From positions 1 to 49,725 of the forward strand of contig WHTG01000002.1 of the NCBI GenBank assembly GCA_009377835.1: a DNA stretch of 49,725 nt, written 5' to 3'. The translations under genes were made by a program, and so were the position numbers. This stretch comes from Nitriliruptorales bacterium (GTDB lineage: Bacteria; Actinomycetota; Nitriliruptoria; Euzebyales; Egibacteraceae). Shown one piece after another: positions 33,703 to 40,259 of this stretch. The notes beneath the pieces are model-generated. The model saw only the letters and a program-made list of their open reading frames with translations. It had not been told where the DNA came from and ran no database searches. Every line of letters starts with the position of its first letter. Within the stretch, counting starts at the first letter, position 1.

Positions 33703-34788
33703 TCACAGCGGCAGCGTGGTGCGGATCCAGTCCGCCAGCACAGGATCGGTGACCGTCAGCCCTTCCTGGCTCTCGATCAGATCACCGTCGGCGAGGAGGC
33801 GGTCTCGGGCATGCGCGGCGGCGCCGTGGCTGACGTCCAACAGGATGGCGGCGTTTCCGAAGATCGCCCCGCCGGACGCGACGATCCGGAGCACGTCGCG
33901 TTCGGCGCGCTGGAAGTGGGAGAACAGGCGCTCCATCGGGTCGGCGGACACCCGCCGGACCTCCTCAACAGCCAAGGCCCAGGTCGACGCGTCGACCGAT
34001 CCGCCCTCGGGTGTATGCCGCCATGCCGCGTCGGCGAGCTGCATCGTGCGCTGCGGGTGACCGGCCGCGAACTCGGTGAGCCGCCCCGGCAGCAGCCCGG
34101 CGCCCCGGCCGGTCGCGGCGAAACCGTCAACCACCATGTCCGTGACCGCAGCGTCAGAAAGTGGCCCGATCGTCATGAGATCGGCCTGGGCGTAGAAGGG
34201 TTCGACACGGTTGGTGAACAACTGGCGCATGACCGACGGCATCGATCCCGCGAAGACGATGCCGAGATCCGTGTAATGGTGCTGCAGTGCCGTGCGCAGG
34301 GCGCCGGCGGCCCCGCCGACCGTGGCGATGGAGGAGAATTCGTCGAGGATCAGCAGGGTCGGAACCCGGGTCGCCGTCGTTACGAGGACGTCCAGCAGGA
34401 GGCCGAGGCGGGCGACGGGATCCGGGCGGTCCTTTGCGGGGCGCGAGAATTCAACTCGCGCCACGCCCAGCCTCAGCTGCAGCGACGCGGCGAACGGAGC
34501 CGCATCCGCTGTGAAGGGCGTGTCGGCCGCGGCCAACGCCTTGTCGACACGGAACACCAGGTCGGCCATGGACGTGACCTCGTACAAATCCACCCACACC
34601 GTCGACATCTCGGTCAGCTCCACCGCGAGTCGCCGCAGCAGGCTGGTCTTGCCGTAGCGGCGCGGCCCGACGAGCGCCGTGACACGACGTGCCGTCACCC
34701 GCCCGATCAGATCGTCGAGCAACTCGTCGCGGCCGCGCACGTCGGCGGGATCCAGCGGCCCCTGGTACTTGAACGGCGATTCCTCCAC
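33703..34788 (-). CDS. AAA ATPase of the archaeal-type (PF01637-like) STAND group
   Basis: 361 residues from a GTG at 34788. Walker A is GPRRYGKTSLL (41-51), Walker B LLILDEFSS, and sensor-type region GSMPSVMRQLF follows. A C-terminal winged helix lies at about 290-360. These ATPases occur as single, often mobile or defence-associated genes in archaea and actinobacteria, and their role is unclear. A perfect palindrome sits 9 nt before the start, which suggests autoregulation. The gene converges with dodecin's strand (same direction) and is divergent from SnoaL. Confidence 0.88.
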   Translation of the reverse strand: MEESPFKYQGPLDPADVRGRDELLDDLIGRVTARRVTALVGPRRYGKTSLLRRLAVELTEMSTVWVDLYEVTSMADLVFRVDKALAAADTPFTADAAPFAASLQLRLGVARVEFSRPAKDRPDPVARLGLLLDVLVTTATRVPTLLILDEFSSIATVGGAAGALRTALQHHYTDLGIVFAGSMPSVMRQLFTNRVEPFYAQADLMTIGPLSDAAVTDMVVDGFAATGRGAGLLPGRLTEFAAGHPQRTMQLADAAWRHTPEGGSVDASTWALAVEEVRRVSADPMERLFSHFQRAERDVLRIVASGGAIFGNAAILLDVSHGAAAHARDRLLADGDLIESQEGLTVTDPVLADWIRTTLPL

Positions 34789-34796
34789 CCGGCTAG

Positions 34797-34815
34797 CCTA
34801 CTGTAAAACAGTAGG
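34797..34815. promoter_or_regulatory. Perfect palindrome at the start of the AAA ATPase gene
   Basis: CCTACTGTAAAACAGTAGG is a perfect inverted repeat with 8-bp arms and a 3-bp spacer. It begins 9 bp upstream of the GTG at 34788, where the ribosome site would lie, and is far more AT-rich than its surroundings. A short T/A-type operator so close to a start suggests a repressor site, possibly the ATPase's own wHTH. It is too short and T-poor downstream to be a terminator. Confidence 0.6.
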
Positions 34816-35105
34816 AAATGGCGGCTGTTTTGCGGACTATCCGACCTGAGCGGTCGCGTCAGCCGGCGCTCCAGCCTCGGGCGGACGATGCCGCGCCGAT
34901 ATCCGCCACGCCTCACACCGTCCCGAACTCTTGCCAGGAGGTAGACCAACGGCAAGGAAGGCGAGCACAATCGTCGGCAACCTCGCGCCGTATTCTGCGA
35001 CGGCGGCGACATCACAGACCTGATCCCGGGTGAGCGGCTCGTCATGGGCACCGGCGACCCGGAAGCCTGACTCCGGCTGAGCATCGTTTGCGAAAGGGGC
35101 GGCTG
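34816..35105. other. Spacer between AAA ATPase and SnoaL gene, with a possible short remnant
   Basis: No complete gene is present. A plus-strand frame ending at TGA about 35068 reads DGGDITDLIPGERLVMGTGD, which looks like a protein tail, preceded by an in-frame stop near 34943. It may be a remnant of a lost gene. The SnoaL promoter probably lies at the right end. Confidence 0.4.
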
Positions 35106-35492
35106 ATGGACCGGGACGACGTTGCAGGCTGGCTCGGCCGGTACGTGGACGCGTGGCGGAGCAACAACCGTGACCGAATCGCAGCGCTGTTCACGACGGA
35201 TGCGATCTACCGTTACCACCCCTACGAAGACCCGCTGGTAGGCGCCGACGCCGTTGCGTCCAGCTGGCTCGAGGACCCCGACGATCCCGACACCTGGGAG
35301 GCGACGTACGAGGCTGTGGCAGTGGATGGGGACGCCGCCGTCGCCGTCGGGACGAGCCGCTACGCGCGGACGGCCGCCCGCCCGGCGCGCACGTACCACA
35401 ACTGCTTCGTGCTGCGCTTCGACGCCGACGGCCGCTGCCGCGAGTTCACCGAGTGGTACATGCAGGAGCCCCCAGGTGCGCCCGACGGGTGA
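35106..35492 (+). CDS. SnoaL-like (NTF2 superfamily) protein
   Basis: 128 residues. VAGWLGRYVDAWRSNNRDRIAALFTTDAIY is the SnoaL N-terminal helix pair, and TYHNCFVLRFDADGRCREFTEWY is the closing beta sheet. NTF2-fold proteins act as small enzymes or binding proteins, and this sequence does not say which. The ATG at 35106 follows GAAAGGGG, and an upstream ATG-like start at 35088 adds six basic residues. It converges with the TetR gene. Confidence 0.85.
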   Translation: MDRDDVAGWLGRYVDAWRSNNRDRIAALFTTDAIYRYHPYEDPLVGADAVASSWLEDPDDPDTWEATYEAVAVDGDAAVAVGTSRYARTAARPARTYHNCFVLRFDADGRCREFTEWYMQEPPGAPDG

Positions 35493-35549: not shown

Positions 35550-36203
35550 TCACGAGTCGCTGGCCGGTTGGTAGTAGCAACGGAACATGTTCTGTGCCTG
35601 CCGCGTAAGCGTCGTGAAACGTCCGCTGTCGTAACCGGCACCGGGTTCGTTCGCCATCTGCTGGGTGATGAGGCCGCTAATGAGGATCGTCAGGAGCCGC
35701 GCGGCCTCGTCGCTGTCCGCGCGGGGATCCAGCTGTCCGAGGCGCACGGCCTCGCGCAACTCGTCGCGCAGCTGCTCCGTCGACCGCACACTCGCGCTGA
35801 ACGTGCCGGAGGACGGCTCGAACCCCGGCACGGGGCGCCAGTACAGGAGTTGCGCAAGCGCCGGGTGCTCGATGCACCACCGCACAACCGCTTCGACGCC
35901 CGCCTCGATTCGCGGCAGCCCGGCAGGCGCCGACGCGACAACGTCCGCCACCACGGCGTCGACGCCGGCGAGACCACGGGCGAACAGTGCGTCATAGACG
36001 GCGTGCAGCGACGGGAAGTACTTGTACAGCGAGGGCGGTTTCACGCCCATCCGACGCGCCATCTGGGAGATCGTGAGTCCGCCCACCCCCTGCTCGGCCA
36101 TGATGTCGCCGGCGTGGTCAAGCGCTTCTGTGATGGTCTGCTCGCGACGTCTGGACCGGCGGTCGGCGCTCGCGGAGCCAGTCTCGCTATGCGATATAGC
36201 CAT
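35550..36203 (-). CDS. TetR-family regulator next to the cox cluster
   Basis: 217 residues. EQTITEALDHAGDIMAEQGVGGLTISQMARR and SLYKYFPSLHAVYDALF form the HTH. The C-terminal domain has a TetR_C_WHG-like pattern. It lies 116 bp downstream of coxG, on the same strand, so it may be read from the cox operon or from its own promoter. Repeats of CATAGC overlap its start, consistent with autoregulation. Control of the CO-oxidation genes is a reasonable inference but not shown. I chose the ATG at 36203. Confidence 0.82.
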   Translation of the reverse strand: MAISHSETGSASADRRSRRREQTITEALDHAGDIMAEQGVGGLTISQMARRMGVKPPSLYKYFPSLHAVYDALFARGLAGVDAVVADVVASAPAGLPRIEAGVEAVVRWCIEHPALAQLLYWRPVPGFEPSSGTFSASVRSTEQLRDELREAVRLGQLDPRADSDEAARLLTILISGLITQQMANEPGAGYDSGRFTTLTRQAQNMFRCYYQPASDS

Positions 36204-36237
36204 AGCTAGATACCATAGCCACACGTGACCAGGTCAA
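36186..36237 (-). promoter_or_regulatory. Candidate promoter/operator of the TetR gene
   Basis: Read leftward, TTGACC (36237-36232) is a -35-like box, with TATCTA (36212-36207) 19 bp further as a weak -10. The same span holds GCTATG (36186-36191) and two CATAGC words (36201-36206, 36214-36219), which pair as an inverted repeat (GCTATG, 9 bp, CATAGC) plus a direct repeat. The AT-rich palindromic region overlapping the start codon is a likely autoregulatory site. Confidence 0.45.
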
Positions 36238-36927: not shown

Positions 36928-37884
36928 TCAGGTGGGTTGCAGGAACGACTGCGGGTCTGCCGTGAACGCGCGCAGGCACCCGGCTGCGCAGAAGTAGTAG
37001 GTCACGCCGTCGTGACCGGTGGTGTTGTGGGCCGCCGCCACCTCCACCGTCATGCCGCACACCGGATCGACGTCGTCGGCGGCGACCGCCACAGCGACGG
37101 GCGCGACGACGGCACCGGAGGCCCTGAGCGCGACGAGTTGCGCCAGGATGGCCACCGCGATCTCCTCGTGCTGCACCGGCCCGAGATCCATGCCCGCCGG
37201 GGCATGCACGCGAGCGAGCGCCTCGTCTGACGCGTCGCGTTCGCGCAACCACTCGAACACTGTGGCCGCCCGCTTCGCCGAGGCGATCAATCCGATGTAT
37301 CCGGCGGGGGTGGCCAGTGCGTGCTCGAGTGCCGGCTCGTCGTAATGGCCCTGCGTCGCGACGACGACGAAGGTGCCTCCGTCAACCGGCAGGTCACGCA
37401 GGTCCAGCGTGGGGACCACGCGGTCGGCACCAGGGTGGTCGACGGCGCTGCCACCGTCATCGACCACCGTCGTGCGCCAGCCCAGGTGTCCAGCCATGCC
37501 CACCAGCACCTCGACCGCCGGCGAGCGTCCGATGACGACGAGCAACGGGGCCGGCAGCATCGGTTCCACGTACACCTCCATCGCGCCCTCACTGGTGCAG
37601 GCCATAGGGACCCTGTCGACACCGGGCCGGTCGTGCTCGAGTGTCGTGCCGAGGGACAGCAACCGTGGCCGGCCGTCGGTCAGCGACTCCAACGCCGTGC
37701 GGACGACGGTGGGCTGTGCGCACGCACCGCCCAACCACCCCGTGACACCACCGTCGGGCGTGATGACCGCCTTGTCGCCGACTTTGCCGGACGACGGCGC
37801 CCGCCGCCACACCACCGTGGCGAGCGCGAACGGCCGACCCCGCCGGACGAGGTCGCCGACGTCCTGGACGAGCCGGCCCGTCAC
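36928..37884 (-). CDS. coxF: XdhC/CoxF-family maturation protein fused to a YHS metal-binding domain
   Basis: 318 residues from a GTG that overlaps the coxL stop (GTGA). Residues 1-255 are XdhC-like: LVRRGRPFALATVVWRRAP, the LGGACAQPTV loop, and a Rossmann part (VVIGRSPAVEVLVGMAGHLG). Residues 271-318 are a YHS domain: DPVCGMTV (Cys276), then YYFCAAGCLRAF (Cys299, Cys303) and ADP. YHS domains are found in heavy-metal ATPases and bind copper or similar metals. In Oligotropha the XdhC-like CoxF is implicated in installing copper in the Mo-S-Cu centre. The fusion therefore suggests direct copper delivery (inference). Confidence 0.9.
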   Translation of the reverse strand: MTGRLVQDVGDLVRRGRPFALATVVWRRAPSSGKVGDKAVITPDGGVTGWLGGACAQPTVVRTALESLTDGRPRLLSLGTTLEHDRPGVDRVPMACTSEGAMEVYVEPMLPAPLLVVIGRSPAVEVLVGMAGHLGWRTTVVDDGGSAVDHPGADRVVPTLDLRDLPVDGGTFVVVATQGHYDEPALEHALATPAGYIGLIASAKRAATVFEWLRERDASDEALARVHAPAGMDLGPVQHEEIAVAILAQLVALRASGAVVAPVAVAVAADDVDPVCGMTVEVAAAHNTTGHDGVTYYFCAAGCLRAFTADPQSFLQPT

Positions 37885-40259
37885 GCCGGCGCCGGCGCCC
37901 CTTGCACGGCCTCCCACACGCGGTGCGGCAGGACCGGCATGTCGATGTTGCGCACGCCGTACGGTTTGAGCGCGTCGAGCACGGCGTTGACGAACGCCGC
38001 GGGCGACCCGACAGTCGCGGACTCGCCGACACCCTTTGCGCCGATGGGATGGTGTGGCGACGGCGTCACGGTCTGGCCCAAGTCGAAGCGGGGCGTCTCC
38101 CACGCCGTTGGCACCAGGTAGTCGGTGAAGTTGGAGCCGATGCAGTTCCCGTCGCCGTCGAACGTGATCCATTGCATGTTCGACATGGCGAAGCCCTCGG
38201 TGAGCCCGCCGGTGATCTGACCTTCGACGACCATCGGGTTGATCCGGACGCCGCAGTCGTCGACGGCGACCATCTTGAGGACCTCCCACACGCCCGTCTC
38301 CGGGTCGACGGCAACGACGACGACGTACGTGCCGAACGGATACGTCATGTTCGGCGGGTCGTAGTAGTGCACGCCCTCCAGCCCGGCCTGCATGCCCTCC
38401 GGGAAGTTGGTGTACGCGGCGAACGCAATGTCCTGGATCGTCACGCTGCGGTCGGGGGCGCCCTTGACCGAGAACTTCCCCGGCTCCCACTCGAGGTCGT
38501 CCTCGGACGCCTCGAGCAGATGCGCCGCCAGCTTCGCGGCCTTGTCGCGCAGCTGCCGCGAGATGACCGCGGTGGCGGCCCCGGCGACCGGCGTCGAGCG
38601 GGACGCGTACGTCCCCAGCCCATAGGGTGTGTTGTCGGTGTCGCCCTCCATGACGATGACATCCGAGGCGGGGATGCCCAGCTCCTCGGCGACGATCTGC
38701 GCGAACGTCGTCTCGTGACCCTGGCCTTGCGATTTCACACCAAGCTTCAGGATCGCCTTGCCGGTCGGGTGCACCCGAAGCTCGGCGGAGTCGATCATCT
38801 TCAGCCCGGCGATGTCGTACTCGCGCGAATTGCCGGCCCCGACGACCTCCGTGAACGACGCGAGGCCGATGCCGATGAGCTTGCCGTCCTCACGTGGTCC
38901 CTTGGCCTGCTCGGCGCGCCAGTGCTCGTAGTCGACCATCTCCAGCGCCTTGTCCATCGCGCCGTGGTAGTCACCCGAGTCGTACAGGAAGCCGGTCGCC
39001 GACCGGTACGGGAACTGGTGGGCCTTGATGAAGTTGCGGCGACGGAACTCGGCAGGATCGACGCCGATCTGATTGGCTGCGTTCTCCACCAGACGCTCGA
39101 TGAGGTAGGACGCTTCGGTGACCCGGAAGGAGCACCGGTAGGCGACGCCACCGGGCGCCTTGTTGGTGAACACGCCTGTGGCCTTGACGTGCGCCGCCGG
39201 GAAGTCGTACGAGCCGGTGCAGATGTGAAACAGGCCTGCACGGAACCTCGTGGGTTGTGCGTCGGCGAAGAACGCACCCTGGTCTGACAGCAGTTCGGCA
39301 CGCATGGCCGTTATGTGGCCCTCCGCGTCGAGTGCGAGCGCGCCCTTCATGTAGTAGTCGCGGGCGAAGCCGGTGGAGATGAGGTTCTCGCTGCGGCTCT
39401 CGATCCACTTGACCGGTTTGCCGATCAGCAGCGAGGCCGCGGTCGCCACGACGTACCCGGGGTAGATCGGGACCTTGTTGCCGAAGCCGCCGCCGAGGTC
39501 TGGGGAGATGATGCGGATATTCTGCTCGGGCAGCCCGGCCACAAGCGCGAAGAGCGTGCGGTGGGCATGCGGTGCCTGCGAGGTCAGGTAGATAGTCGCC
39601 TTGCCGGTGGCGGGGTTGACGTCGGCGACTGCCCCGCACGGCTCCAGCGGGCAGGGGTGCGAGCGCGGGTAGAACGTGTCGAGCTCGACGACGGTCGCGG
39701 CCTCGGCGAAGGCGCGTTCCGTGGCGTGGGCGTCCCCGGTCTCCCACCGGTAGGCGACGTTGTCGGTCTGCTCCTCCTTCTCGTCGCGGATGAGCGGTGC
39801 GTCCCCGGCCAGCCCCTGCTGTGGGTTGACAACAGCGGGCAGATCGTCGTAGTCGACGAAGATCAGCGACAGCGCATCGCGGGCGATGTAGGGATCGGTC
39901 GCGATGACCGCGGCGACCTCCTGGCCCTGGTATCGAACCTTGTCGGTGGCGAGCACCGCCTGCGTGTCGCCGGAGAGCGTCGGCATCCAGGCAAGGTTGT
40001 GCTGGGCCATCAGCTCACCCGTGACGACCGCTACCACGCCGTCGAGCGCCTGCGCCTCGGACGTGTCGATCGACACGATCCGGGCGTGCGCGACCGGCGA
40101 ACGCAGGATCGCCATGTGGAGCATGTTCGGGAGCTTGACGTCGTCGAGGTAGTTGCCGGCGCCCTGGATGAAGCGGTCGTCCTCGATCCGCCGGCGGTTG
40201 TGACCCATGCCGCAGATCTGCTCGGAGGTGCGGAGGGCGGGCTGCTCGGTGGTGGTCAT
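37881..40259 (-). CDS. coxL: Aerobic CO dehydrogenase large subunit, form I
   Basis: 792 residues, full length. The form I signature AYRCSFR is at 373-379, with Cys376 the ligand of the copper in the Mo-S-Cu centre; form II enzymes have AYRGAGR there. The Mo-pterin region is DLGGGFGNK (255-262) with GQGHETTFAQ later, and the catalytic Glu is in GAKGVGES (Glu746). This subunit oxidises CO to CO2 at the molybdenum/copper site. The gene order M-S-L is that of form I operons. It overlaps the XdhC-YHS gene by 4 bp. Confidence 0.97.
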   Translation of the reverse strand: MTTTEQPALRTSEQICGMGHNRRRIEDDRFIQGAGNYLDDVKLPNMLHMAILRSPVAHARIVSIDTSEAQALDGVVAVVTGELMAQHNLAWMPTLSGDTQAVLATDKVRYQGQEVAAVIATDPYIARDALSLIFVDYDDLPAVVNPQQGLAGDAPLIRDEKEEQTDNVAYRWETGDAHATERAFAEAATVVELDTFYPRSHPCPLEPCGAVADVNPATGKATIYLTSQAPHAHRTLFALVAGLPEQNIRIISPDLGGGFGNKVPIYPGYVVATAASLLIGKPVKWIESRSENLISTGFARDYYMKGALALDAEGHITAMRAELLSDQGAFFADAQPTRFRAGLFHICTGSYDFPAAHVKATGVFTNKAPGGVAYRCSFRVTEASYLIERLVENAANQIGVDPAEFRRRNFIKAHQFPYRSATGFLYDSGDYHGAMDKALEMVDYEHWRAEQAKGPREDGKLIGIGLASFTEVVGAGNSREYDIAGLKMIDSAELRVHPTGKAILKLGVKSQGQGHETTFAQIVAEELGIPASDVIVMEGDTDNTPYGLGTYASRSTPVAGAATAVISRQLRDKAAKLAAHLLEASEDDLEWEPGKFSVKGAPDRSVTIQDIAFAAYTNFPEGMQAGLEGVHYYDPPNMTYPFGTYVVVVAVDPETGVWEVLKMVAVDDCGVRINPMVVEGQITGGLTEGFAMSNMQWITFDGDGNCIGSNFTDYLVPTAWETPRFDLGQTVTPSPHHPIGAKGVGESATVGSPAAFVNAVLDALKPYGVRNIDMPVLPHRVWEAVQGAPAPA

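Follow-up and report, generated by a model that had tools for sequence, protein, structure and literature searches.

A gene encoding a lone AAA ATPase, together with a palindrome directly before its start codon, was identified in the window, the whole 49.7-kb stretch of DNA that was analysed. The following features were assigned at this locus.

33703–34788, minus strand: lone AAA ATPase of 361 aa with Walker A GPRRYGKTS and Walker B LLILDEF; profile matches to PDB 2fna and 2qen.
33706–33918, minus strand: C-terminal region (about residues 291–361), a predicted winged helix with a candidate recognition helix at about residues 319–332, from a weak AdcR match, MarR_2 in 3/39 homologues and low-confidence models.
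34786–34788, minus strand: GTG start codon, supported by the frame and by the SPF..GPL motif, which is conserved across the alignment; the −10 spacing places the predicted transcription start of a putatively leaderless mRNA at 34788.
34795–34800, minus strand: predicted −10 box TAGGCT, separated from the start codon by 6 nt and overlapping the right arm of the palindrome at 34797–34800; TANNNT occurs in homologues.
34797–34815, no strand assigned: palindrome, proposed operator with a TAC-N9-GTA core; unique in the genome, with comparable inverted repeats at homologous promoters.
34825–34831, no strand assigned: candidate additional half-site CTGTTTT (minus strand: AAAACAG) that repeats a portion of the palindrome; the words AAAAC, AAACA and AACAG are repeated upstream, possibly by chance.

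Upstream of the ATPase gene lie genes for a SnoaL-like protein (35088–35492, plus strand) and a TetR-family regulator (35550–36224, minus strand), neither of which is conserved beside the homologues. Further along, the frame at 37881–40259 (minus strand) apparently encodes a molybdenum-hydroxylase-type large subunit and is adjoined by accessory-like genes. It contains AYRCSFR, a signature motif of form I aerobic CO dehydrogenases.

The ATPase is present as a single copy in the window genome, and both its Walker A and Walker B motifs are intact. An alignment of 39 homologues, built from proteins of 330–400 aa, contains the invariant residues P42, R43, G46, K47, T48, D149 and E150 and a conserved N-terminal SPF..GPL motif. 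The window protein scored above the Pfam cut-off for AAA_22 (30.2 bits, cut-off 27) and below the cut-offs for ATPase_2 (20.6 vs 33.2), AAA_16 (25.6 vs 32.6) and nSTAND1 (19.5 vs 27.1, the score that bears on a possible place in the MNS clade of STAND NTPases), while ATPase_2 was matched by 39/39 homologues at E up to 0.05. A profile of the 39 homologues matched PDB 2fna (E 2e-8) and 2qen (E 1.4e-7), the latter over nearly its full length. At the C-terminus, positions 294–344 gave a weak profile match to the winged helix of AdcR (E 0.073), Pfam MarR_2 was detected in 3 of the 39 homologues, and a helix followed by two strands appeared in low-confidence alignment-free models of the whole protein and of the C-terminal piece (mean pLDDT 37 and 56, respectively). 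These weak matches and poor models make a C-terminal winged helix likely, not proven.

Relatives of the ATPase are patchily distributed. At E up to 1e-20 they were found in 6 of the 30 genomes searched from the order, and at E up to 1e-30 in 15/66 genomes of the class and in 18 of a sample of 396 across the phylum. One other order held relatives in 28/248 and 24/198 genomes (overlapping draws, E up to 1e-35), and the class of that order in 17/395 (E up to 1e-50). No ATPase relative was found in the plasmid, phage and viral-contig collections searched, and a link to mobile elements was rejected on this basis. A known anti-phage defence system was also rejected, as PADLOC models matched only short Walker-A stretches (E 4e-4 or weaker) without a conserved system neighbourhood, and the neighbours of the gene are not conserved. 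A conserved partner gene was sought in flanks of about 1.5 kb and in about 8 kb on each side of 21 loci, and none was found; the multi-locus clusters remaining in the 8-kb flanks were mostly overlapping frames within the ATPase gene itself, plus one 7-locus cluster at scattered distances. Therefore, no other conserved regulator travels with the ATPase gene.

A putative promoter element is shared by most homologues. The hexamer TANNNT ends 6–7 nt before the start codon in 30/46 homologues compared with 4/54 neighbouring genes, and in an earlier set, with a gap of 5–7 nt, it was found in 27/43 against 2.0 expected. The excerpted text of PMC3898074 gives TANNNT as the −10 motif of Mycobacterium tuberculosis, centred 7–12 bp before the transcription start site, and reports no −35 consensus and leaderless transcripts for about a quarter of the genes. 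By analogy with M. tuberculosis, and because the TANNNT box sits only 6–7 nt before the start codon, the mRNA of the window ATPase is probably leaderless, with its predicted transcription start at 34788.

The palindrome, CCTACTGT-AAA-ACAGTAGG at 34797–34815, has perfect 8-bp arms and a 3-bp spacer, as the initial annotation had reported. Its position close to the start codon was also correctly given, but the gap between the GTG at 34788–34786 and the palindrome is 8 bases, not the 9 bp then reported. Arm length alone is not significant, because 17 palindromes with arms of at least 8 bp and spacers of up to 5 bp occur in the window, compared with 6–17 in five mononucleotide shuffles. Among these 17, the palindrome at the ATPase promoter is the only one with arms at least half A+T, and within its own 85-bp upstream region it reached a shuffle p of 0.025. 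A scan of the 3.34-Mb genome allowing up to 2 mismatches found it as the sole match; 3 mismatches added one further palindrome-like site, compared with 8 for a reversed control pattern. With only this one site in the genome, a regulon was rejected, and the common regulatory circuit suggested in the initial annotation is not supported as one joining several genes. The consensus of the LexA (SOS) box is CTGT-N8-ACAG. A LexA box was rejected at this locus since the site reads CTGT-N3-ACAG and is single in the genome.

Upstream regions of the homologues were compared in two sets, one of 43 regions for the best-palindrome test and one of 46 (L073–L075 added) for the 5-mer pair, control-gene and robustness counts. 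Excluded were L028 (match from residue 100; a distant paralogue), L036 (match from residue 114), L058 and L068 (no N-terminus) and L064 (no upstream DNA); L027 stands outside both counts and was inspected separately. Some homologue starts were assigned by script, possibly incorrectly (e.g., L057 and L062, which have no usual start). Read side by side, most homologues carry repeats, both inverted and direct, within the 85 bp that precede the start codon. Examples are TGGGTATACC-TTC-TAGGTATACCCA upstream of L023, CCTACCGCATTGCGGTAGG upstream of L024, GGGAGCGTATCGGTACCGAAGTTCGGTACCGATACGCTCCC upstream of L065, and arrays of GAGTAT/ATACTC upstream of L053 and L060.

Inverted 5-mer pairs in the 85 bp before the 46 homologues numbered 190, about fourfold the 50.4±8.0 of dinucleotide shuffles. 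The excess persisted when pairs were counted individually (216 vs 51.6±8.0), when the last 14 bp were cut off (180 vs 41.2±7.7) and when 5 strong or near-duplicate rows were removed (182 vs 44.3±8.0). The top inverted words were GTACC..GGTAC, TACTC..GAGTA and CTACT..AGTAG, and TAC..GTA ranked first among 3-mers (28 vs 11.7 in shuffles). The best single palindrome, tested against dinucleotide shuffles, gave p<0.05 in 20/43 regions and p<0.01 in 12/43 (Fisher p 4e-17); 23/43 regions lacked a single palindrome at p<0.05, and the upstream region was the best palindrome window of its own locus in only 14/43. The 5-mer pairs were also commoner before the ATPase homologues than before 54 neighbouring frames of the same loci (p 1e-5). 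The pair TACY...RGTA occurred in 19/46 homologues and was absent from 27/46, compared with 3/54 neighbour-gene upstream regions; the 54 control frames were called mechanically, and some wrong starts among them could lower the control counts. L027 also contains TACC...GGTA, and CTACCGCAT...GGTAG is common to L024 and L027, which belong to different genera. Many homologues thus have mirror-image sites in the same place, with lineage-specific flanks and spelling on a TACY...RGTA core. The genome G436 contains three ATPase homologues (L055, L069 and L070), and the upstream repeat word is different at each.

The sequence TACTGT...ACAGTA had been suggested as a tag shared by the whole group. The window gene has it; L029 and L046 have the related word CTACTG/CAGTAG, L040 has CTACTGTTTTACAG, and most homologues use other words (GAGTA/TACTC, GGTAC, GCTCTA or GACTA). 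A scan of genome contigs for CCTACTGTNNNACAGTAGG returned 20 stretches with no convincing ATPase relative nearby, and tblastn of the ATPase against them gave one weak local match (L007, 32% identity, E 1e-4) that was not judged a relative. A shared exact tag was rejected on both counts, the word being rarely common to homologues. The search for similar palindromes before homologues, which had been put forward as a check, therefore recovered the same architecture but mostly not the same sequence. What is shared is a kind of operator, not a sequence tag.

Several observations tie the sites to their own gene. In six genomes that hold relatives, 7/10 sites of the form TACTC-N9-GAGTA lie directly before the ATPase gene, with one site elsewhere in G576 and zero in G436. 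Tandem pairs of this site, 24 bp apart, are present in G620, G621 and G572. Tandem operator-like sites with a 24-bp period were seen upstream of L060, L053 and L059, a pattern suggestive of several protein copies assembling in order on the DNA. In the close pairs L030/L032 and L039/L075, the arms are kept and the spacers and flanks changed; identity is 67% and 64%, respectively, in the last 75 bp and falls to 39% and 30% further upstream. L065 and L066 are too alike to inform on arm conservation. About 85–140 bases before the L032 gene, some 28 consecutive G are followed by GGCC and a long C run, probably an assembly artefact. Because the window site is unique in its genome, each ATPase gene seems to control only itself.

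Co-variation of protein and operator was examined with sets of 39 and 42 proteins, again of 330–400 aa. Operator words were closer between similar proteins, with a Mantel p of 0.001 for the ATPase domain, 0.001 for the winged-helix region and 0.005–0.007 for the recognition helix. In partial Mantel tests, the recognition helix given the ATPase domain was not significant (p 0.10–0.17), and the whole winged-helix region was significant at one of three word lengths (p 0.012, uncorrected). Helix–operator co-variation beyond relatedness was not shown, so it is architecture and uniqueness, not co-variation, that speak for operator reading by the winged helix.

The palindrome is best read as an operator through which the lone AAA ATPase binds its own promoter and represses its own gene, a reading to which we give a probability of about two in three. 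It draws on the enrichment of inverted repeats, the TACY...RGTA pair, the TANNNT box, the uniqueness of the site in the genome, the conservation of the arms, the absence of a conserved neighbour and the hints of a winged helix. Counted against it are the 23/43 regions without a significant palindrome, the 27/46 without the TACY...RGTA pair, the upstream window being best of its locus in only 14/43, the non-significant partial Mantel result for the recognition helix, and the weak profile matches and low-confidence models behind the winged helix. The C-terminal winged helix would contact the palindrome, with the ATPase acting as a dimer or a larger assembly. Bound there, the protein would cover the −10 box of the putatively leaderless promoter, block RNA polymerase and thereby hold its own level low. 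Release could come from the nucleotide state or from a signal that the ATPase senses. We infer that the ATPase itself is the binder, that its binding represses and that ATP has a role. Tight self-control by an operator this close, as proposed in the initial annotation, is retained as the best inference; inverted repeats at this position are far more frequent before homologues than in shuffles or before neighbouring genes.

An unlikely alternative is that the palindrome serves another host regulator, for example the TetR-family protein encoded at 35550–36224. This gene lies about 760 bp upstream of the ATPase gene on the same strand, and TetR-family regulators bind palindromes of such size. However, the site is unique in the genome and is therefore absent from the TetR gene's own promoter, and the promoter architecture is conserved, yet no neighbour is conserved across the 21 loci. 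The three homologues of G436, each with a different word, also argue against a regulator other than the ATPase.

Alternatively, the palindrome could serve activation, or could nucleate some other activity of the ATPase (assembly on DNA or marking) with little effect on its own transcription. Arrays that extend to −80 in L059, L060 and L065, in place of a single site at the −10 box, and the tandem sites at 24 bp in three genomes would suit this explanation, which we likewise consider unlikely. Against it stand the overlap of the window palindrome with the predicted −10 box, which fits repression, and the repeats, which stay tied to the gene's own promoter.

Chance or promoter composition, by which AT-rich promoters in GC-rich genomes produce stray palindromes, is improbable as a general explanation. 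The number of window palindromes is within the shuffle range and the single-gene p is only 0.025, but the homologues exceed composition-keeping dinucleotide shuffles about fourfold, the 54 neighbour-gene regions of the same loci hold fewer 5-mer pairs, and close homologues keep arms rather than spacers. Chance is thus largely refuted for the whole family and possible for the window site alone. An RNA hairpin acting as a terminator or 5'-leader element, for which eight perfect base pairs and a 3-nt loop might speak, is very improbable, as a T-run after the palindrome is absent on both strands and the −10 spacing sets the predicted transcription start at the GTG, so that the palindrome would not be transcribed from the ATPase promoter.

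A further extension of the autorepressor reading, which is possible but doubtful, is that the family is widespread and each lineage has a private operator code, with the ATPase reading only its own promoter, operator words (built on TACY...RGTA and often arrayed in tandem at 24 bp) changing together with the protein and a nucleotide-gated oligomer assembling at the site. The dose of the ATPase would then be a self-sensing switch for some other cellular task. Solitary ATPases of this kind are frequent orphans, and they lack a partner gene from which a role could be guessed. If the self-operator is conserved, it offers a direct handle on the ATPase, and whatever signal releases it would indicate what the protein senses. 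The variety of natural spellings beside the genes of their presumed binders would be a ready-made data set on specificity change in winged helices.

No operator or autoregulation of this ATPase family was found described in the open-licence literature searched. The structures 2fna and 2qen (archaeal-type Walker ATPases, ATPase_2-like) resemble the family by the homologue-profile match; the similarity is only distant, both were deposited without a function, and no operator for either was described in the papers searched that name these codes. That winged-helix proteins can control their own genes is an established principle. MarR-type autorepressors such as AdcR combine a winged helix with an inverted repeat over their own promoter; in the present case the predicted winged helix would instead form the end of an AAA ATPase, and the genome has no site besides the one at the ATPase gene. 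As far as the excerpted account in PMC7319586 goes, the AbiEi antitoxin is a winged-helix-type protein whose targets are inverted repeats upstream of its own gene, whereas no toxin or partner gene is conserved beside the ATPase. Stf76 of the Sulfolobus plasmid-virus pSSVx, in the portion of PMC4027180 drawn on here, is a winged-helix protein with two recognition sites in the promoter of its own gene, but it has 76 residues and is without an ATPase domain, unlike the lone ATPase of this locus.
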